A stretch of 64,000 bases of DNA from Persicirhabdus sediminis (lineage in GTDB: Bacteria; Verrucomicrobiota; Verrucomicrobiia; Verrucomicrobiales; Akkermansiaceae), in the NCBI RefSeq assembly GCF_016595495.1, contig NZ_JAENIM010000021.1, positions 1 to 64,000 of the forward strand. Reading direction: 5' to 3'. The notes beneath the pieces are model-generated. The model did no database searches. It was given only the letters and a program-made list of their open reading frames with translations, and was not told the DNA's origin. Below, in pieces: positions 2,200 through 9,636 of this stretch (positions within the stretch are counted from its first letter, which is position 1; the number at the start of each line of letters is the position of its first letter). The position numbers and the translations under genes are program-made.

Positions 2200-2427
2200 C
2201 ATTGACTGATTAGAGATTTCTATCACCCTTTAGTGGATTTACTAAACACTGAAAAATTTCTACTGCTAACTAAGGGCGTAGCCCGCCATCCTTTCCGATC
2301 ATGAAAATTATCAAACTAGCTAAACATCCCGCCCGCCAGCTCAACAAAAATAATGGTCGTAGCCTCGGCTAATCGGATTTCTACAATGTTAAATCACTCA
2401 ACCATTACTACGAACCAATACTGTTCG
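2200..2427 (+). repeat. 228-bp repeat, copy 1 (attI-like platform)
   Basis: This stretch matches 4339-4566 over the same length, with scattered substitutions in the first two thirds and about 70 identical bases at the end (from TCGTAGCCTCGG to CTGTTCG). Beyond CTGTTCG the two copies diverge completely, 9 bases before the start codon of two unrelated genes. The identical end carries a TACAAT box (around 2390), which could be a -10 element driving the following genes. The break right at a G-TT is what recombination at an integron attI-type site would leave. Copy 1 starts near CATTGACTG. No protein is evident in it. Confidence 0.8.
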
Positions 2428-2436
2428 CTGAGAAAA

Positions 2437-3132
2437 ATGAAACTCGCTACTATCATCTTTATCGCCATGACTTCATCGGTCTTGGCGAAGGAGTGGGCAG
2501 TGATTGACGGTGGATCACCATCGGAGAAGCATGAACTCGTTACAATACCGATCTTCGACACTGACCCACCCAACGGGACACCGTTCAGAGTTGCGCTCAG
2601 GGACACGGCTTCGAAGAAGATACTTGATTCGTTTCTATGGGAGGGCGATATGGGCGATCCTCAGGCTCACAAACAGAATCAAGCTTTCTGGGCACCCAAT
2701 GGAAGATATGTCGCTGTCTACATGCGTGCTGGTAGGCTGTCGGCTACAACCGCTTACTTCATTGTAGAACGCGGGAAACTCACCCGACTTACTCCTCCCG
2801 ATGCTTGGCAGAATGTACTCGGACGCTTCAAGACTACAAAAGCTGGCCCGAATGGTGGGATTTCCCCCGTCGCTTGGACAGACAAGAACCATTTGAAAGT
2901 CGCAGTCATCGGTTCGGCGGAAACAACGAGTGGAAGAATTCCGTTTCATTACCACGCCATATTCCGTTTCGAAGGCGGCGATGGAGTAGTCCCATGGATT
3001 CGCCTCGAGGGTGCCGTGCCAGCAAAAGACAACAGCGAACAAGACGGCGCTGAGCAACCCGCTCCCGCTCCGGAGTCGAAGTCGGAGGGCGGGAAGAAAC
3101 CTAAACCAGAATCGAAGGGGCGCTCCCAGTAG
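2437..3132 (+). CDS. Hypothetical secreted protein (cassette gene 1)
   Basis: A 231-residue secreted protein. I choose the ATG at 2437 because it opens a signal peptide (MKLATIIFIAMTSSVLA). The in-frame starts before it lie inside the 228-bp repeat shared with another gene. The body has strand-rich WxPNGRYVAVYMRAGRLS and WTDKNHLKVAV segments that resemble single blades of beta-propeller proteins. The last 30 or so residues (Pro, Glu, Lys, Ser rich) are encoded by the palindromic site at 3037-3154, so this tail probably came from the recombination site and not from an ancestral domain. Function unknown. Low CCAGCT content and the flanking sites suggest a mobile cassette. Confidence 0.65.
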   Translation: MKLATIIFIAMTSSVLAKEWAVIDGGSPSEKHELVTIPIFDTDPPNGTPFRVALRDTASKKILDSFLWEGDMGDPQAHKQNQAFWAPNGRYVAVYMRAGRLSATTAYFIVERGKLTRLTPPDAWQNVLGRFKTTKAGPNGGISPVAWTDKNHLKVAVIGSAETTSGRIPFHYHAIFRFEGGDGVVPWIRLEGAVPAKDNSEQDGAEQPAPAPESKSEGGKKPKPESKGRSQ

Positions 3133-3154
3133 CGGGCGCCAGGCCTTGAACGTT
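3037..3154 (+). repeat. attC-like recombination site 1
   Basis: It begins GAACAAGACGGCGCTGAG and ends CTTGAACGTT. CCCGCT at 3058-3063 pairs with AGCGGG at 3131-3136, and outer segments pair imperfectly. Its interior shares GAGTCGAAGTC, AAACCT and ATCGAAG with the site at 3784-3893, so the two are diverged copies. The stop codon of the upstream gene lies inside it, and the next start codon is 8 bases past the GTT, both usual for integron cassettes. The final box GTTATCC does not fit the canonical GTTRRRY, so this is attC-like only. Confidence 0.55.
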
Positions 3155-3162
3155 ATCCTAAA

Positions 3163-3780
3163 ATGAACAACACAACCTTAGTAGTAGGCTATGGCCCTGG
3201 AATCGGTGCGCACCTGTTCCGTGATCTTGACGAGTGCGACTCGAGGATTGGTGTATCTAGAAGTCACTCGGATGATCGACTCTGCACTCAATACATTTGT
3301 TGTGGAGTAGGTGATTTCGGCAAGCATGTGGGTTCCATCGGAGGGAAGGTTTCTCTGGTGGTGTATGTGCCGAGTGAATTCGGCGAGTCAAAGAAACTTA
3401 CCATGGAGGAGTATGATTCATTCATGGATACAGGACCTAGAGGTATGCTGAGCGTTTTTCATAGTCTCATTGATGCAGGTTGCCTCTCGGAGAATGCTCT
3501 GTTTGTTAGCGTCGGTTCTACGGCCAGTGAATCTTCGCATAAACCATCGAACAACAACCCCGTTTATGCTGTAGCGAAGTCGACTCAGAAGTCTCTGGTC
3601 GCTCAATTGGCAGGTGCTCACAAGTCGTATCGGTTTGCTACGATTACGTTGGGTGCTATACAAGATGGTAATAAGGGCGTTGGTTACGACAATATCACCA
3701 GAACAATCAAGTTTCTAAAAGAGATGAATACAGGGGTTCGATACACAGAAATCGAGCTGAATTCGGAGCTAGACATTTAA
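3163..3780 (+). CDS. Short-chain dehydrogenase/reductase family protein (cassette gene 2)
   Basis: A 205-residue Rossmann-fold protein of the short-chain dehydrogenase/reductase family. The N-terminus carries the dinucleotide loop VVGYGPGIGAHL (residues 7-18, a GxGxxG type). A serine lies in the VSVGSTASES strand near residue 118, and the catalytic pair appears as YAVAKST near residue 138 (YxxxK). It is shorter than typical members of about 250 residues, and its C-terminal substrate loop is reduced, so the substrate cannot be guessed. It starts 8 bases after the GTT of the site before it and is followed by a strong inverted-repeat site, so it appears as a single-gene cassette. No signal peptide; cytoplasmic. 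Confidence 0.75.
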   Translation: MNNTTLVVGYGPGIGAHLFRDLDECDSRIGVSRSHSDDRLCTQYICCGVGDFGKHVGSIGGKVSLVVYVPSEFGESKKLTMEEYDSFMDTGPRGMLSVFHSLIDAGCLSENALFVSVGSTASESSHKPSNNNPVYAVAKSTQKSLVAQLAGAHKSYRFATITLGAIQDGNKGVGYDNITRTIKFLKEMNTGVRYTEIELNSELDI

Positions 3781-3783
3781 AAG

Positions 3784-3893
3784 GGATAACAAGGCAGCGC
3801 ACACCATCCACTACCCGCTCTGAGTCGAAGTCTGAATGATAAACCTGAAATCGAAGCTCTCTCTCTGGTAGTGGATGGGTGGCTTTTGACGTT
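3784..3893 (+). repeat. attC-like recombination site 2
   Basis: The clearest of the foldable sites. ATAACAAGGCAGCGCAC opens it, and CCATCCACTACC (3804-3815) is the exact reverse complement of GGTAGTGGATGG (3867-3878). It closes with GTGGCTTTTGACGTT. The layout of outer partly paired arms, inner perfect stem and variable middle is that of an integron attC. Middle sequence (GAGTCGAAGTCTGA, AAACCTGAAATCGAAG) is shared with site 1. The terminal box GTTCCCC is not canonical. It abuts the remnant HAD-like gene that follows. Confidence 0.6.
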
Positions 3894-4057
3894 CCCCCCA
3901 TACCATCCACCAGCTCCCGCAGCACCGAGCGTGTGATACCTTTGTTACTGTCGCACCAGCAGATGTGGTTAAGCATTGCTGGCGTGGCATGTTTGAAGCG
4001 GAAGCTGCAGTCTTCTAGAATCGCGTATTCCTCCACCTCGGGGTGATTTTCTAGCAA
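3894..4057 (-). pseudogene. HAD-like protein, C-terminal remnant, copy 1
   Basis: Read on the minus strand this encodes ENHPEVEEYAILEDCSF followed by RFKHATPAMLNHICWCD and a GITRSVLRELVD end. It matches the copy at 6349-6606 residue for residue over most of 45 positions. The more complete copy begins with a HAD motif, so this is the C-terminal part of a HAD-like phosphatase of the small family often annotated as HAD domain in Swiss Army Knife RNA repair proteins (my recognition, not a search). No N-terminal half exists upstream, because the frame is interrupted before 4080. The fragment ends exactly where the cassette block ends. Confidence 0.6.
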
Positions 4058-4338
4058 ATCTCCAGCTAGCTGCGATGACGCTGCATAGCCCTAATAGGAT
4101 TTGAGCATGATCTAGCAGATTACGCAGATTACATTCTATGGAGTAGCTGGAAGGCGAGTGTAGCATTTTGAGTGCGCGTGCTTTAGCACCGCTCTGAGTT
4201 TCCAGCCAGCGTGTTTTAGCCAGCTAGTTCTTTAGCTACGAAGTGGACAGCTAGCGGAGTTCTTTGCCTCATCCAGAGCCATGGCCAAGCTGCGAAGTGA
4301 GCGCAATCTGTGGTTAACTATTTTGCTACTAACTATTA
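4058..4338. other. Gene-free spacer between cassette blocks
   Basis: About 280 bases with stops in all frames and no gene I can support. It contains several CCAGCT and GCTAGC words (near 4057, 4212 and 4250), the style of the core genome and not of the cassettes, so it may be old chromosomal sequence between the two arrays. A short repeat of CAGATTACG-type sequence lies near 4114-4128. No promoter or terminator is obvious. Confidence 0.5.
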
Positions 4339-4566
4339 CATTGACTGGTTAGATGTTTCTATCAATCTGTAGTAGATTCACTGACAACTAAAACTTTCCT
4401 ACTGCTAACTATGGGCGCAGCCCGCTATCCTTTTCGATCATGAAATCTATCAACCTAGCAAAAAATCCCGCCCGCCAGCTCAACAAAGATAATGATCGTA
4501 GCCTCGGCTAATCGGATTTCTACAATGTTAAATCACTCAACCATTACTACGAACCAATACTGTTCG
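4339..4566 (+). repeat. 228-bp repeat, copy 2 (attI-like platform)
   Basis: Second copy of the element at 2200-2427, the same length, ending with the same CTGTTCG, after which sequence diverges 9 bases before the ATG of the SUKH-like gene. The preserved final 70 bases include TACAAT. The start reads CATTGACTGGTTAGATG, with a GTTAGAT box near its beginning. Two copies of the same upstream element, each followed by different genes and then by the same HAD remnant, indicate duplication of an insertion platform followed by separate gene capture. Confidence 0.8.
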
Positions 4567-4574
4567 GTCCAAAA

Positions 4575-5108
4575 ATGACAATCTTGGAAAAGTACGACGA
4601 TCTGGACGAGGAAGCGCAAGAGGTTTATCCGTACAGGGACTTCCCATCATTAGACGAGGCTCAGCTCCAGGCCTTTGAGCAATCCAACGGTATTCTTCTC
4701 CCTCCTGAGTTGCGTGAGATTCTGCTCGAAGGCAACGGCGGCTACATCAAAGAGGAGTTCCTACGCTGCGACGATGAAGACCCTGACCTGCTCACAGGGA
4801 TTCAAGAGGTCTTTGGTATTTCGAACGATCCCGACCACTGGATGTGCTCCATCGTTCCCCTACCTAAGTGGGTGACCTTCAAGCACGAGATTTACACTTC
4901 GTTTCCGACGGTATCCGAATTGGAATCTATCAATGGCCCGATCTCGAGATATTTCGTCATCTCTGGAGATGGGGTTGTATTCCATTTGTTGGACTACACT
5001 GCCTCTGAGAGCAGCAAGGCAGTCTGCTACCTTGATTTAGTCGGAGGTGATCAGAAGATCATAAGGCTCGGTGACGGGATCGCCAGCGTCATCCAAATCG
5101 AACGCTAA
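4575..5108 (+). CDS. SMI1/KNR4 (SUKH) family protein (cassette gene 3)
   Basis: A 177-residue acidic cytoplasmic protein. Residues about 30-60 carry the hallmark of the SMI1/KNR4 (SUKH) family, LPPELREILLEGNGG, preceded by a helix (DEAQLQAFEQSNGI). The end (VCYLDLVGGDQKIIRLGDG) fits the closing strand and helix of that fold. SUKH proteins are frequently immunity proteins of contact-dependent toxin systems, and they are common among mobile cassette genes. No partner toxin is visible here, so an immunity role is inference. The start is fixed at 4575 because sequence before it is the shared repeat. The downstream site at 5119 begins 11 bases after the stop. Confidence 0.7.
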   Translation: MTILEKYDDLDEEAQEVYPYRDFPSLDEAQLQAFEQSNGILLPPELREILLEGNGGYIKEEFLRCDDEDPDLLTGIQEVFGISNDPDHWMCSIVPLPKWVTFKHEIYTSFPTVSELESINGPISRYFVISGDGVVFHLLDYTASESSKAVCYLDLVGGDQKIIRLGDGIASVIQIER

Positions 5109-5118
5109 ATATCATCAC

Positions 5119-5240
5119 CGAACAAGTCGTGGGAGGTAAGCGCCTCTCGGGGCTGCTCCCTTTTCGACTGGCAGCTCCGAGGGGGTGGGGAGCATCTGGA
5201 TTCTGAGGTTGCAGCAGGGCGCAACCTCCACTATGATGTT
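5119..5240 (+). repeat. attC-like recombination site 3
   Basis: It starts GAACAAGTCGTGGGAGGT and ends ACCTCCACTATGATGTT, giving an outer stem between 5129-5137 and 5224-5232. A second hairpin GAGGTTGC / GCAACCTC lies inside. The 5' motif GAACAAG is shared with sites 1 and 4. The next start codon is 8 bases after the GTT. The terminal heptamer GTTCTCC is not canonical, so the site is attC-like by architecture only. Confidence 0.5.
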
Positions 5241-5248
5241 CTCCAATA

Positions 5249-5884
5249 ATGAAACGCTCCATTCGTCTTGTATCTATTTTCGCAATTGTGTGCACCATAG
5301 CAATTTGCCTCGGAGTCAGCGCTAAAGATCGTGCAAGTGATTTTAGTCGTTCAAGACTAAACGATGGCATTTATGTCGGGGCGCCTGATGGCTTCAGATG
5401 GTGTCGGGACGGAATACATCTCGATCATTTCAAGCTGCTTGCAGGTCCTCCACTGGAGGTAGGTCCTCGGATCGAGTTTGAGAATTCATTGCAGACAGTA
5501 AAGTATAGGTCAGGCATAGATGGTGTCTCTCATGATTTTTATTTTGATCTAGATGGCTTTCTTGTTTCGCGGAGATGGTTTGAAGGTTTAGATGGGGGAC
5601 AAGATCTCGCTGCACCAACTCCAACAACTCCAGCGGGGCTGAGAGCTCAGTATCCACGGATAGTTCCAATGACATGGAAGGGAGATGCTCCCAATGGCTT
5701 TCACATCGAAGTTCAGATACAATACCCCAATGGTGACTGGAATCATTCGTTTGACTACTATACCACCGCCCTCCGAGCTGTGCACCTTCACACAGGTGCG
5801 AACAATGGTAGATGGAGAGTCAGGGGGCTGAATAGTAAGGGGGCAGGTAAGTGGTCTAAGTTCACCACTTTCACATGCAGATAG
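5249..5884 (+). CDS. Hypothetical secreted protein with fibronectin-like C-terminus (cassette gene 4)
   Basis: A 211-residue exported protein: basic start, hydrophobic core (IFAIVCTIAICLGV) and cleavage near SAK, then a globular region of unknown type. The last 70 residues have strands ending in WRVRGLNSKGAGKWSKF, the pattern of a fibronectin type III-like or related Ig fold, where a WRVRA.N..G.G.WS motif recurs. Two Cys pairs (RWCRDG and the final TFTC) could form disulfides outside the cell. It begins 8 bases after the preceding GTT. GAACAAGACGCTG follows the stop at 5893-5905 with no matching 3' half before the next gene, so this gene and the next probably share one cassette. Function unknown. 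Confidence 0.6.
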   Translation: MKRSIRLVSIFAIVCTIAICLGVSAKDRASDFSRSRLNDGIYVGAPDGFRWCRDGIHLDHFKLLAGPPLEVGPRIEFENSLQTVKYRSGIDGVSHDFYFDLDGFLVSRRWFEGLDGGQDLAAPTPTTPAGLRAQYPRIVPMTWKGDAPNGFHIEVQIQYPNGDWNHSFDYYTTALRAVHLHTGANNGRWRVRGLNSKGAGKWSKFTTFTCR

Positions 5885-5916
5885 TAGTGGCAGAACAAGA
5901 CGCTGACTGAAGAAGG

Positions 5917-6343
5917 ATGAATACTGGATTCAAAAGTTTACTCTCAATTGCCCTCCTTGTCGTTGCTGGCTGTTCAACGTTTGAAGTCGATTGGAGCCAG
6001 TACGATGGAATGGCGATCATCGAGGACTCCTTTGGGGGGACCAAGGGTTGTAGAGATTGATGGAGCTCCACCCAATAGGATGTCTCATCAGATTGTGACG
6101 GTTGTTCCATTGGCGTACGTTGAGCCGGGGCGTCACATTTTCAAAATACAAGTTGGTAACAATGGAGTTCTACTCGGTGAAGACTTTTACTTTGTTGAAG
6201 TTCATGCCGTTTTGGAGGAAGGAAGCTATCTTCTCGTAGAGAAAAATGGGACCTACACCTTCGAAAAGAAGGAAGAAAAGCGAGATGCCAACCAAGCGCA
6301 GCTCATAACTCCGGCGGGTCCCTCGACTCCACATGAGTGCTAG
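5917..6343 (+). pseudogene. Hypothetical lipoprotein with a frameshift in a G run
   Basis: The ATG at 5917 opens a lipoprotein signal (SLLSIALLVVAGC), but that frame stops near 6060. The frame that continues to 6343 joins it if one base is skipped in the run of six G at about 6038-6043. Joined, it gives a 141-residue lipoprotein whose mature part (VVEIDGAPPNRMSHQI, VEPGRHIFKIQVG, FYFVEVHAVLEEGSY) is strand-rich. This may be a true pseudogene, a slippery phase-variable run or a read error; I cannot tell. The last residues lie in the foldable site at 6290-6348. No family recognised. Confidence 0.6.
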
Positions 6344-6348
6344 ACGTT
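6290..6348 (+). repeat. attC-like recombination site 4
   Basis: A short site that starts AACCAAGCGCAGCTCAT and ends ATGAGTGCTAGACGTT. AGC-CA-CTCAT in the left arm pairs with ATGAGTGCT in the right arm, leaving unpaired extra bases on one side, as the extrahelical bases of integron attC sites do. The end GACGTTC followed by CCCCAT matches the junction at 3889-3900, so both blocks stop at the same point beside the HAD remnant. Confidence 0.45.
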
Positions 6349-6606
6349 CACCCCATCACATCTACCAGCTGCCGCAGAACAGAGCGTGTGATGCCTTTGT
6401 TAGTGTCGCACCAGCAGATGTGGTTCTGCATCGCTGGCGTGGCATGTTTGAAGCGGAAGCTGCAGTCTTCCTGAATCACGTATTTCTCAACCTCAGTCCA
6501 GCGCAGCCATTCTTCCGGGTGAAAACTCACCGCTGTCTGGATGTCTATCCGTTCCGCGGCAGAGGCGAATCACCCCGTCGAAATCTAAAAAGATCACTTT
6601 CATCAT
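6349..6606 (-). pseudogene. HAD-like protein with internal deletion, copy 2
   Basis: On the minus strand the ATG at 6606 (preceded by GAGGTAA, which may act as ribosome binding site) reads MMKVIFLDFDGVIRL, the DxDG motif of haloacid dehalogenase-like hydrolases. After about 36 residues the frame hits a stop. A shifted frame then gives the C-terminal part (EEDCSF-type, HICWCDTNKGITRSVL) shared with 3894-4057. The middle of the protein with the remaining HAD motifs is missing, so it has an internal deletion plus a frameshift and is not functional. A 35-codon open frame (SSQFGGLLGCQLERG) ends 2 bases before it and may be the tail of a lost upstream gene. Confidence 0.65.
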
Positions 6607-6770
6607 GTTTACCTCTGATGAAATGCCTGCATCTCAGCTGGCAGGGCGATGTTGGTGTTCAGTCCTCGCTCTAGCTGGCAACCTAGCAGCCCACCGAACT
6701 GGCTGGAGTTGTTGGGCTAACTTTGTTGTGAAAGCCGATGGCCTTGAAGCGTGATAGATTCAAAACAAAC
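6607..6770. other. Gene-free region with a partner near 9685-9765
   Basis: No complete gene. About 100 bases (6630-6730) resemble 9685-9765 on the far side of the polyketide operon, sharing CGAACTGGCTGGAG exactly plus CGCTCT-GCTGG and CTTTGT words. Read on the minus strand both encode a similar peptide (SSQF..LL), so they are probably fragments of a duplicated small gene. Confidence 0.4.
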
Positions 6771-6873
6771 CCTGCTACCTGCTACCTGCTACCTGCTACC
6801 TGCTACCTGCTACCTGCTACCTGCTACCTGCTACCTGCTACCTGCTACCTGCTACCTGCTACCTGCAGATCTC
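6771..6873. repeat. Heptanucleotide tandem repeat (CCTGCTA)n
   Basis: Fourteen perfect copies of CCTGCTA followed by a partial copy. The unit length of 7 means any reading frame through it repeats every 7 codons (CYLLPAT). I see no gene using it with a proper start. It lies 78 bases before the methyltransferase gene, in its probable promoter region, so copy-number change could alter expression. Confidence 0.95.
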
Positions 6874-6950: not shown

Positions 6951-7583
6951 ATGCAATCTAGGGAGTTAGTCACAGAATGGCTGGATGTTTTGCCAGCAGA
7001 TCATGTTGATGCGATACGCAGTCGGCGCGATTTGGAGATGATCAATTTCTTCATGGGCAACGAGAGGTGGATTCTTCGCCAGCTAGAGCTTTGGCCAGAG
7101 ATTGATTGTGTGGTGGAGTTAGGCGCTGGCACTGGCCAGCTTATCTCGCGGCTGAGCGAGAAATTTCCAGAGAAATCATGCATTGCCATTGATCTGATAG
7201 AGCGTCCAGCTGGCGTAGCTGCGGGAGTCGAGTGGCGTCGCCAAGACGCGCTAGATTTCCAGCTAGCTAGCGGGCGCACCATGGTCATCGCTAACCTATT
7301 TTTGCACCATTTACCAACGGCCCAGCTGGCGAAGCTATTCACTAACATCAGTGCCGCTGATGCCCTGATCTGCGTGGAACCACTGCGAACGCGGCTCTCA
7401 CTAACAATGGCATCGCTGATCTATCCGTGGGTCAATGCGGTGACACAACACGATATGATCGCCAGCATCCGCGCCGGGTTTATCGCTGGTGAGCTGGCTG
7501 AGTGCGCGCCAGCCAGCTGGCAGTGGGATGAATCACCACATCCATTTGGCGGACTGCGCAGCGTGGCAAAAATGCTTCCATGA
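6951..7583 (+). CDS. SAM-dependent methyltransferase (polyketide operon)
   Basis: A 210-residue class I S-adenosylmethionine methyltransferase. The SAM loop VVELGAGTGQL lies near residues 56-66, the acidic strand end AIDLIE near residue 80, and motif III-like FLHHLP near residue 121. It acts in the cytoplasm, presumably methylating the product of the type III polyketide synthase encoded two genes on, since the three genes overlap. Its stop codon overlaps the next start by ATGA, a sign of translational coupling. It starts downstream of a 7-bp tandem repeat. Very similar methyltransferase / FAD oxidoreductase / type III PKS groups occur in Bacteroidetes and other marine bacteria (established pattern), but the natural product is not known to me. 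Confidence 0.8.
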   Translation: MQSRELVTEWLDVLPADHVDAIRSRRDLEMINFFMGNERWILRQLELWPEIDCVVELGAGTGQLISRLSEKFPEKSCIAIDLIERPAGVAAGVEWRRQDALDFQLASGRTMVIANLFLHHLPTAQLAKLFTNISAADALICVEPLRTRLSLTMASLIYPWVNAVTQHDMIASIRAGFIAGELAECAPASWQWDESPHPFGGLRSVAKMLP

Positions 7584-8611
7584 TGGCCCAGCAAATTCAC
7601 ATCATTGGCGGCGGGCTCGCGGGACTGAGTCTGGCGAACGGACTCGCAGCGCGCGGCATCGCCGTGCAAGTGTATGAAAAACGCCGCTACCCGCAGCATC
7701 GTGTTTGCGGCGAGTTTATCTGCGGGGTGAGTGAAGGAGTGCTGAACAAACTACACATCCAACCAGCGCTGGCCGACAGCATCATTCACCGCCAGCTGAG
7801 CTGGCACGTGGGTGATAGGCAGGTTCTATCAAGTGCTCTGCCGACGCCGGCGTATTCCATTTCCCGCTTCCAGCTAGATCACCGGCTGGCGGACCAATTG
7901 ATCGCAGCTGGCGGGTCTATCAGCTACGGCAAAGTAGCTAGCCGAAGCGATGCAGGCTGGGTGAATGCGCAGGGGAAAAACTATCGACCAACAAATACTC
8001 ACAAGAACGATGGCTGGATTGGCTTGAAAATCCACCTCTATCACCAGACTGATGGGCTGGAGATGCATTTGGCTAACAATGGCTACATCGGGCTGTGCTC
8101 GATTGACAGCAAACGGTCTAACGTCTGCGGGCTATTTCGCCTCAACCGCCAGCTGAAAGGAAAAGGGCTAGAGCTAATCATCAACTACCTGCGTGACGGC
8201 GGGCTGAACCAACTCGCCGATCAGCTGGCCAAGTGCGACTACGACAAACAAAGTTTTTCAGCCATTGCGGGATTTGAGTTTGGTGACCAGCCAGCTGAAT
8301 CTGATCGCTTTTGCATTGGTGATGCCGCCAGCCTGATAGAACCATTTACCGGCAATGGCATGTCGATGGCGCTGGAATCTGCCGCGCTGGCGGTAGATCC
8401 TTTAGTCGAGTATGCTAATGGAAATGCCAGCTGGTTAGACACCTGCGCGAGCTACCGAAATGCTCACCACGACAAATTTCACAAAAGACAGCGGATGGCG
8501 AACTCACTGCACCCCTTGATGTTAAACAAACATGGCCAATGGCTGCTCAGCCAACTTTGCCGCACCCGCCTATTGCCTTTCAAATCTATCTTCCACCACC
8601 TGAGAACATGA
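7580..8611 (+). CDS. FAD-dependent oxidoreductase (geranylgeranyl reductase / PHBH-like)
   Basis: A 343-residue flavoprotein. The N-terminus has the FAD-binding Rossmann motif IHIIGGGLAGLSLANGL (residues 6-22) with the acidic strand end VYEKRRYP. The second FAD motif CIGDAASLIEPFTGNGM (near 246-262) is the GD motif of p-hydroxybenzoate hydroxylase-like and geranylgeranyl-reductase-like enzymes. RVCGEFICG near residue 43 fits the Cys-containing loop of the latter group. It likely hydroxylates or reduces the polyketide made by the downstream enzyme. Start codon ATG ATG overlaps the preceding stop, and its own stop overlaps the PKS start (ATGA), so the three proteins are probably made in fixed ratio. 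Confidence 0.8.
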   Translation: MMAQQIHIIGGGLAGLSLANGLAARGIAVQVYEKRRYPQHRVCGEFICGVSEGVLNKLHIQPALADSIIHRQLSWHVGDRQVLSSALPTPAYSISRFQLDHRLADQLIAAGGSISYGKVASRSDAGWVNAQGKNYRPTNTHKNDGWIGLKIHLYHQTDGLEMHLANNGYIGLCSIDSKRSNVCGLFRLNRQLKGKGLELIINYLRDGGLNQLADQLAKCDYDKQSFSAIAGFEFGDQPAESDRFCIGDAASLIEPFTGNGMSMALESAALAVDPLVEYANGNASWLDTCASYRNAHHDKFHKRQRMANSLHPLMLNKHGQWLLSQLCRTRLLPFKSIFHHLRT

Positions 8612-9636
8612 TACTCACTAGCCTAGCTACAGCCACCCCACCCTATCAATATAAGCAGCCAGAATGTCTAACTGCGATGCGCGAGGCCGATTTCTGGCCA
8701 CAGCTCGCGCCGCGCTCTCAGACGATTCTCGAAAAGGTGCTCAGCAGCCGCCAGTCAGGCATAGATAGTCGGTCATTTTGTCTGCCCGACCTGCAGCAAG
8801 CGTGGAGCAAAAATGCTCAAGGGCTCAACGAATATTTCGAACAAGAAGCGCCAAAGCTGGCAGTGGCAGCAGCTAACAAAGCCATCGCAGACGCCCAGCT
8901 AGATATCGGAGAAATCGACGCGCTGATGGTGACCACCTGTACCGGCTACCTGTGCCCGGGGCTCAGCTCGCACATTGCCGAGCAGCTGGGTCTGAAACCC
9001 AATGCCTATCACCAAGATCTAACTGGCTACGGTTGTGGCGCGGCGATTCCGATGTTGCAAATGGCCGACGGCTACCTGCACGCGCAGCCAGCTGGAGCAC
9101 GCGTGCTCACCATTTGTGTGGAAATCTGCTCAGCGGCCTTTTATGTGGAAGACGACTTTGGCGTGCTTATCAGCACCTGTTTGTTTGGTGATGGGGCGGC
9201 GGCGGCTATCTGGACAAAACAACAAGCGGGTGGGTTGAATTTTTCTAACTTCCAATCTATCCACCATCCAGCTGGACGCGAGCTGATCCGCTTCACCAAT
9301 GCCAATGGCCAACTGCGCAACCAGTTGGACCGCAAAGTTCCAGGCTTGGTTGGCGAGACTGCCGCGCAGATCTACCAACAGCGCAGTTTTGATCCTGACC
9401 ACCACATCACACACGGTGGCGGGCGCGATGTGATCGAGGCGCTGGAAGCCGTATTACCTGTCGACCAGCTAGAGCCAGCGCGTGAGGTGATGCGCCATCA
9501 CGGCAATCTATCTAGCCCGTCAGTTTTATTTGCGCTGAAGTACCAGCTGGATAGAAACCCGCAGAGCGACCGCCTGTGGCTGTGTACTTTTGGCGCAGGA
9601 TTTTCCATGCACAGCTGCGAGGCTGTGCGTTGTTAG
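8608..9636 (+). CDS. Type III polyketide synthase (chalcone/stilbene synthase family)
   Basis: A 342-residue homodimeric-type ketosynthase that extends an acyl-CoA starter with malonyl-CoA and cyclises the product. The catalytic triad is visible: Cys143 in TGYGCGAAIP, His269 in ITHGGGRDV and Asn300 in RHHGNLSSPS. The flanking motifs VTTCTGYLCPG and FGDGAAAAIW also fit. I start it at 8608, where ATGA overlaps the stop of the FAD gene; earlier in-frame starts would add an unrelated Pro-rich leader. The neighbours encode a methyltransferase and a flavin oxygenase, so the final product is probably a modified alkylresorcinol, pyrone or quinone-like lipid. That is inference from gene content; chain length and starter cannot be read from sequence. 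Confidence 0.92.
   Translation: MILTSLATATPPYQYKQPECLTAMREADFWPQLAPRSQTILEKVLSSRQSGIDSRSFCLPDLQQAWSKNAQGLNEYFEQEAPKLAVAAANKAIADAQLDIGEIDALMVTTCTGYLCPGLSSHIAEQLGLKPNAYHQDLTGYGCGAAIPMLQMADGYLHAQPAGARVLTICVEICSAAFYVEDDFGVLISTCLFGDGAAAAIWTKQQAGGLNFSNFQSIHHPAGRELIRFTNANGQLRNQLDRKVPGLVGETAAQIYQQRSFDPDHHITHGGGRDVIEALEAVLPVDQLEPAREVMRHHGNLSSPSVLFALKYQLDRNPQSDRLWLCTFGAGFSMHSCEAVRC

Follow-up and report, generated by a model that had tools for sequence, protein, structure and literature searches.

What are integron-like gene arrays doing in a stretch of DNA that encodes no integrase, and what is the repeat that opens each of them? The question is raised by the first 64,000 nucleotides of contig NZ_JAENIM010000021.1 of Persicirhabdus sediminis, a member of the Verrucomicrobiales. 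This stretch, called here the window, is the start of one (C21) of the 47 contigs of the genome. Two neighbouring blocks between positions 2190 and 6346 are each headed by a copy of the same repeat, and a preliminary description made from the letters alone had read them as integron-like cassette arrays without a visible integrase, perhaps of a divergent or undescribed class. They are genuine integron cassette blocks, and sequence comparison identifies the repeat as the attI site of the integron of this genome. The explanation favoured here, with a probability of about 0.78, is that the many copies of this repeat are orphan promoter-plus-attI platforms, with cassette arrays behind them, that are served in trans by a single integron integrase (IntI).

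The absence of an integrase is true of the window but not of the genome. The search for an intI gene that the preliminary description had suggested yielded three tyrosine recombinase-family matches, two of which have, by eye, the length and look of XerC/XerD. The third, a protein of 497 residues encoded on contig C16 (C16:404-1897, locus L003), is the one IntI found: it scores 344.9 bits against the integron integrase family TIGR02249 (cut-off 265 bits) and its alignment with IntI4 (2a3v, E = 2.7e-68) spans the catalytic part with the insert that characterises integron integrases. It looks intact and is presumed to be active. Some 190 residues precede the part covered by TIGR02249, a long N-terminal extension, and residues from about 90 onward are conserved in relatives from the order. 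In the array regions that were fetched, intI occurs only on C16 and, as its first ~53 codons, on C42; the latter contig (L073) holds a second integron platform, in which this reduced intI is followed by an attC array.

The link between the window and this integrase is the repeat. A repeat of 228 bp had been described before each block, and the pair (2190-2436 and 4329-4575) indeed extends over 247 nt at 87% identity. Directly upstream of intI, in the position of attI, lies a sequence of 137 bp (C16:92-228) that is 91% identical to it. The core of the repeat, TACTACGAACCAATACTG followed by TT, occupies 2406-2425 in the first block (crossover after G2423; all window features are on the forward strand unless otherwise stated), and the same 20 bases stand beside intI on C16 and in both window copies. 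When the copies of the genome are aligned, the order is constant: a conserved A box, a variable segment, a leader of 23 codons, the core, and then almost nothing conserved. Over the 20 positions leading to the junction, mean pairwise identity is 0.58-1.0; from some 11 nt beyond, it is only 0.22-0.34. This collapse of identity, together with the different open reading frames (ORFs) that follow, marks a recombination site whose exchange point lies between G and TT. A short A-rich stretch separates the junction from the start codons. The earlier statement that the genes begin shortly after a GTT also holds, with a measured spacing of 8-11 nt: the ATGs at 2437, 3163, 4575 and 5249 are preceded by GTTs ending at 2425, 3154, 4564 and 5240.

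The window repeat has 48 matching pieces in the genome, and the copies are 71-94% identical to those of the window. There are 28 candidate cores, about 24 of which are clearly related. Copies of attI were found on at least ten contigs (C8, C9, C14, C15, C21, C31, C39, C42, C46, where they occur in two places, and C47); C12, C41 and C45 have partial copies or isolated A boxes. Nearly all of the attI copies precede different ORFs, and all but two lack an adjoining intI. The positions internal to C42, C46 and C47 indicate a true dispersal. Thus, the genome departs from the canonical integron, which has a single attI at its intI-proximal end. On C47, a weak attI unit is preceded at about 350 bp by a tmRNA (L074:8124-8483 and nearby), and on C46 the attI units are preceded at about 1.5 kb by a tRNA (L069:3368-3439).

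The sites at the cassette ends confirm the integron nature of the arrays. An attC covariance model was built from an alignment of 16 sites; of the 12 pairs in the consensus hairpin, 11 show compensatory changes. Pairing is realised in 86.9% of the cells of the alignment. Shuffled alignments pair in 63.6% (none of 500 attains the observed value), and sliding the partner gives 34-46%. The sites have the conserved AAC/GTT ends and the imperfect hairpin with unpaired bases that are expected of attC. The model recovers 77 sites in the genome and finds attC in all eight long arrays of relatives that were scanned. Three of the four foldable sites that had been described after the window genes match it, at 3034-3158, 3784-3897 and 5117-5244, in agreement with the check proposed at the time; the fourth (~6286-6351) looks degenerate and folds no better than shuffles, although it has the end GTGCTAGACGTT common to intact attC sites. 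Moreover, the R'' box of an attC is expected to be complementary to the start (R') of its own cassette. For 44 cassettes located behind an attC, the mean agreement is 3.59 of 4 positions (1.97 when shuffled), with 39 matching at 3 or 4 positions and 34 at all four. For 17 cassettes located directly behind an attI, it is 2.76 (1.90 when shuffled), with 12 matching at 3 or 4 positions. All three testable cassettes of the window match at 4 of 4. The original assignment of these blocks to integron-like arrays is thus borne out on three counts: the attC family covaries, R'' complements R', and the genome encodes an IntI.

In the usual picture an integron has one attI, and mainly the first cassettes of the array are expressed from its promoter. 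In P. sediminis, one IntI, whose gene adjoins an attI of its own and an ordinary array, would use attI x attC recombination to insert cassettes in trans at the orphan attI sites. Many cassettes could in this way be placed at once directly behind putative promoters, and such parallel placement would relieve the limit on expression. The use of orphan attI sites by IntI is inferred; it is plausible because IntI1 is reported to recombine attI1-gene-attI1 and delta-attI-type cassettes (PMC12901181). The genome holds arrays of two kinds. The contig end that bears intI and attI overlaps the end of C19 over 95 bp at 100% identity, and the intI-joined array, continued into C19, has no extra attI; C19 and similar small contigs (C4, C6, C10, C18, C28 and C40) carry many attC sites and no attI copy. 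Tandem attI blocks, on the other hand, are found in C15, C14 and C21.

Several observations weigh against this explanation. Little R''/R' agreement is seen in 5 of the 17 cassettes adjacent to attI, which may reflect mis-assigned pairs, decay or other origins. Four of the 28 candidate cores are weak (C31+4445, C31+6722, C39-10032 and a short copy on C47), and decayed copies exist, for instance one on C15 with GTC for GTT; consequently, some of the attI copies are probably non-functional. No clear -10 element accompanies the A box. Finally, contigs often end inside arrays, and the number of separate loci is uncertain because the assembly is broken there.

The distribution of these elements in the order Verrucomicrobiales was studied by looking for IntI, which has matches at E <= 1e-20 in 126 of 289 genomes. 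Where an attI was found adjacent to the intI of a relative, it shares the common core AATA..ACTGTT; this motif is too short and too variable for a sequence-only attI model of the whole order, and such a model was abandoned. The window unit had no match in the other 386 genomes of the order that were searched. The search of contigs with IntI returned distant matches only (38-59% identity), and there was no sister or same-genus genome among the relatives searched. Four integron-bearing relatives were searched genome-wide with their own attI. In two of them (G132 and G121), the attI tested occurs once. In a third (G017, on its single contig, L152), about 240 kb separate intI from a second attI, which shares 93% identity with the first over 106 bp and includes a TTGACT element; many attC sites lie behind this second attI, and no intI match occurs in the 16-kb stretch fetched. 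The last one (G222; one contig; L154, L155 and L126) has three platforms that are ~97-99% identical, each with its own cassettes; in two of them intI is damaged. Platforms with an orphan or duplicated attI therefore exist elsewhere in the order, and the P. sediminis genome is the extreme case seen.

How the copies arose is a separate matter, since the structure of the units fits a cassette-like carrier of attI and repeated duplication of an array end alike. One possibility, to which we would give somewhat less than even odds, is that the blocks result from tandem duplication and recombination of the array end with its attI, after which IntI replaced the cassettes or the blocks became inert relics. 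The tandem blocks of C15, C14 and C21 are as expected from such a process, and unit similarity is in part local: it is so on C39 and on C15, where the units are mutually 86-92% identical. The range of divergence among the copies, the decayed cores and the damaged last block of the window point the same way, and the platforms of G222 resemble segmental copies of intI-attI. Nevertheless, the dispersal inside C42, C46 and C47 requires more than tandem duplication, and R''/R' pairing that is intact behind many of the attI copies speaks for whole cassettes having been inserted.

Alternatively, the unit made of a HAD-like (haloacid dehalogenase-like) tail, the promoter and attI could itself be a mobile, cassette-like element bounded by crossover points. 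IntI would move it in the manner of delta-attI-type cassettes and seed platforms with it; each landing of such a portable platform would create an expressed capture site, and the landings together a dispersed network. This proposal differs from the favoured explanation in the origin of the copies and not in their role, and we consider it unlikely. In 7 of the 9 genome copies, the HAD-like tail does start with an attC-type end, G(T/C)T, and the unit ends at the exchange point of attI. The copies are dispersed, similarity also runs between loci (the first window unit is closer to a C46 unit, at 91%, than to its own neighbour, at 88%), and IntI1 is able both to excise and to insert cassettes ending in delta-attI (PMC12901181). 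Yet, the same boundaries would be seen if the HAD-like sequence were the flank after the last cassette and the blocks had been duplicated. Many of the C15 units have another upstream sequence, with a spacer made up mostly of palindromes like repetitive extragenic palindromes (REPs) and of CCAGCTAG repeats, and neither an empty site nor a circle was seen. Matches to the Acido-Lenti-1 RNA (RF01687) fall on palindromes of REP-like look, GCCCATGGCTTCAGCCATGGGT, near several attI units (L064, L070); this RNA was set aside as a part of the system since it overlaps such palindromes at only some units.

The idea of a divergent or undescribed integron class came from the final heptamers of the window sites, GTTATCC, GTTCCCC, GTTCTCC and GTTCACC, which were read correctly and do not conform to GTTRRRY. 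They are in fact typical of this genome: the R' consensus GTTRRRY fits 9 of 62 heptamers, most being of the form GTT[CA][GT][CG][CT], and the heptamers adjacent to attI in relatives deviate likewise. Because R''/R' pairing is kept and the relatives deviate too, the unusual heptamers are best seen as a property of the lineage. The N-terminal extension of IntI could also be invoked in favour of a new class, but the score of the protein above the TIGR02249 cut-off, the canonical structure of attC and the homologous integrases found across the order make this very improbable, and the proposal was dropped.

Lower still is the chance that the repeat is an unrelated dispersed element (for example a REP or a promoter element) standing before genes by accident: copies with an A box and no attI core and other repeats nearby could suggest it, but its 3' part recurs beside intI, its conservation ends at the exchange point, and attC partners follow.

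The A box and the leader deserve some comment. In the first window unit the A box (ATTGACTGATTAGAGATTTCTA) occupies 2201-2222 and includes a -35-like TTGACT, which makes it a putative promoter element. It has 43 hits in the genome at no more than one mismatch, compared with 10 for the reversed pattern, and is kept in most attI units. A role as a general promoter of the host was considered and found unsupported, as most exact matches are at attI units. The leader frame (MKIIKLAKHPARQLNKNNGRSLG, 2301-2372 in the first unit) is kept in most copies. The ORF11 of attI1 is an analogue that was considered for it; nevertheless, selection on a leader peptide is unsupported, with a ratio of nonsynonymous to synonymous rates (dN/dS) of ~1.1 and differences of 0.26, 0.29 and 0.21 at the three codon positions. 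A second in-frame start toward the cassette (ATGTTAA) is present in about half of the copies, is usually stopped near the junction and is likewise unsupported.

Behind the first attI core, cassette 1 (2424-3152) encodes a secreted protein (ORF 2437-3132); its start TTCGCT complements its own R'' AGCGAAC at 4 of 4, and its attC (3034-3158; 88.7 bits, a member of the training set) overlaps the 3' end of the ORF. Cassette 2 (3153-3891; ORF 3163-3780) starts with TTATCC, complementary at 4 of 4 to R'' GGATAAC, and has its attC at 3784-3897 (99.1 bits, also a training-set member; bottom-strand folding z = -2.6). Its SDR-like product had been called a short-chain dehydrogenase/reductase (SDR), for which the match to PF00106 is weak and below the curated cut-off (E = 1.4e-4). 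A unit delimited by two crossover points follows (3892-4562), in which the attI alignment distinguishes an antisense HAD-like tail, a spacer, an A box (4340-4361), a leader (4440-4511) and the second attI core (4545-4564). Cassette 3 (4563-5238) carries the SUKH protein already recognised from the sequence (ORF 4575-5108; PF09346, E = 2.5e-10). It starts with TTCGGT, complementary at 4 of 4 to R'' ACCGAAC, and its attC (5117-5244) is matched at E = 1.4e-5 from outside the training set (bottom-strand folding z = -2.4). The rest of the second block (5239-6345) looks like two fused cassettes: a secreted protein (ORF 5249-5884), a truncated attC at 5890 that the model matches at E = 0.76 only, an interrupted lipoprotein gene (5917-6343, its frame broken into 5917-6060 and then 5948-6343) and the degenerate site mentioned above. 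The end of this block is thus damaged.

The array closes on its right side, before chromosomal genes, with the longest copy of the HAD-like sequence (6346-6606, reverse strand; repeat D3, with further copies in the genome). The remnant reported after each block is a repeat of 152 nt at 89% identity (3888-4039 and 6343-6494), whereas its HAD identity, suggested by MKVIFLDFDGV read downward from 6605, is unproven, the piece of 60 residues having no Pfam match. On the left, 93-123 is probably a degenerate attI end (CACTCAACCATAACCGCGCACTAACATCGTT; repeat family D4), with 8 mismatches in 31 positions; no such match occurs in 20 mononucleotide-shuffled windows, and it is tentatively the tail of a third block running off the contig end. 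The scarcity of the word CCAGCT in the cassette genes, noticed from the beginning, is real: CCAGCT/AGCTGG occurs once in 1468 nt and not at all in 1783 nt of cassettes (0.00-0.68 per kb), versus 4.64 per kb in 6700-64000. A CCAGCT-poor stretch at 1293-2138 contains a lipoprotein-like gene that joins DUF695 and RraB domains and is possibly cassette-borne, though no attC was found there. A tandem heptanucleotide array, (CCTGCTA)n, lies directly after the array end (6769-6865), and genes resembling a methyltransferase, an FAD-binding oxidoreductase and a type III polyketide synthase stand in a row beside the array (6951-9636).

The system can be compared with several known ones. It shares with sedentary chromosomal integrons the IntI family, the attC hairpins, the layout of the cassettes and an array joined to intI, but one attI is typical of those (PMC9024848) and about 24 are found here, nearly all without an adjoining intI. 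Clusters of attC sites lacking integron-integrases (CALINs), which are thought to be mobilised in trans (PMC12444791), also consist of attC arrays away from intI, as do the arrays described here; yet, CALINs are defined without attI, and the present blocks open with attI and a putative promoter. In the delta-attI-type cassettes of class 1 and 2 integrons (PMC12901181), the unit lies between crossover points and its 3' end is an attI-derived site where attC would be expected, a layout that the present units may share, although duplication would explain their boundaries as well. A resistance gene and, in most cases, an incomplete attI make up those cassettes, in contrast to the putative promoter, full attI and many copies seen here. 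IntI-mediated insertion at attG, as far as it is described by Loot et al. 2024 through PMC12444791, also places cassettes away from the integron platform, but the attG are non-attI genomic targets and the sites in question here are recognisable attI copies.

Integrons themselves are well known; what is unusual is the number and dispersal of the attI copies, and no report of many or duplicated attI sites per integron was found in the openly licensed literature. With dispersed attI sites, a single integrase could take up many cassettes side by side and have them expressed; such sites would also account for the founding and continued use of cassette clusters that have no integrase. Integrons typically have one attI, and attI sites other than those of class 1 are poorly described and undetected by IntegronFinder 2.0 (PMC9024848). 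For this reason, dispersed platforms of this kind may be common but unseen: of the four integron-bearing relatives in which the genome was searched for further copies of the attI beside intI, two had them.

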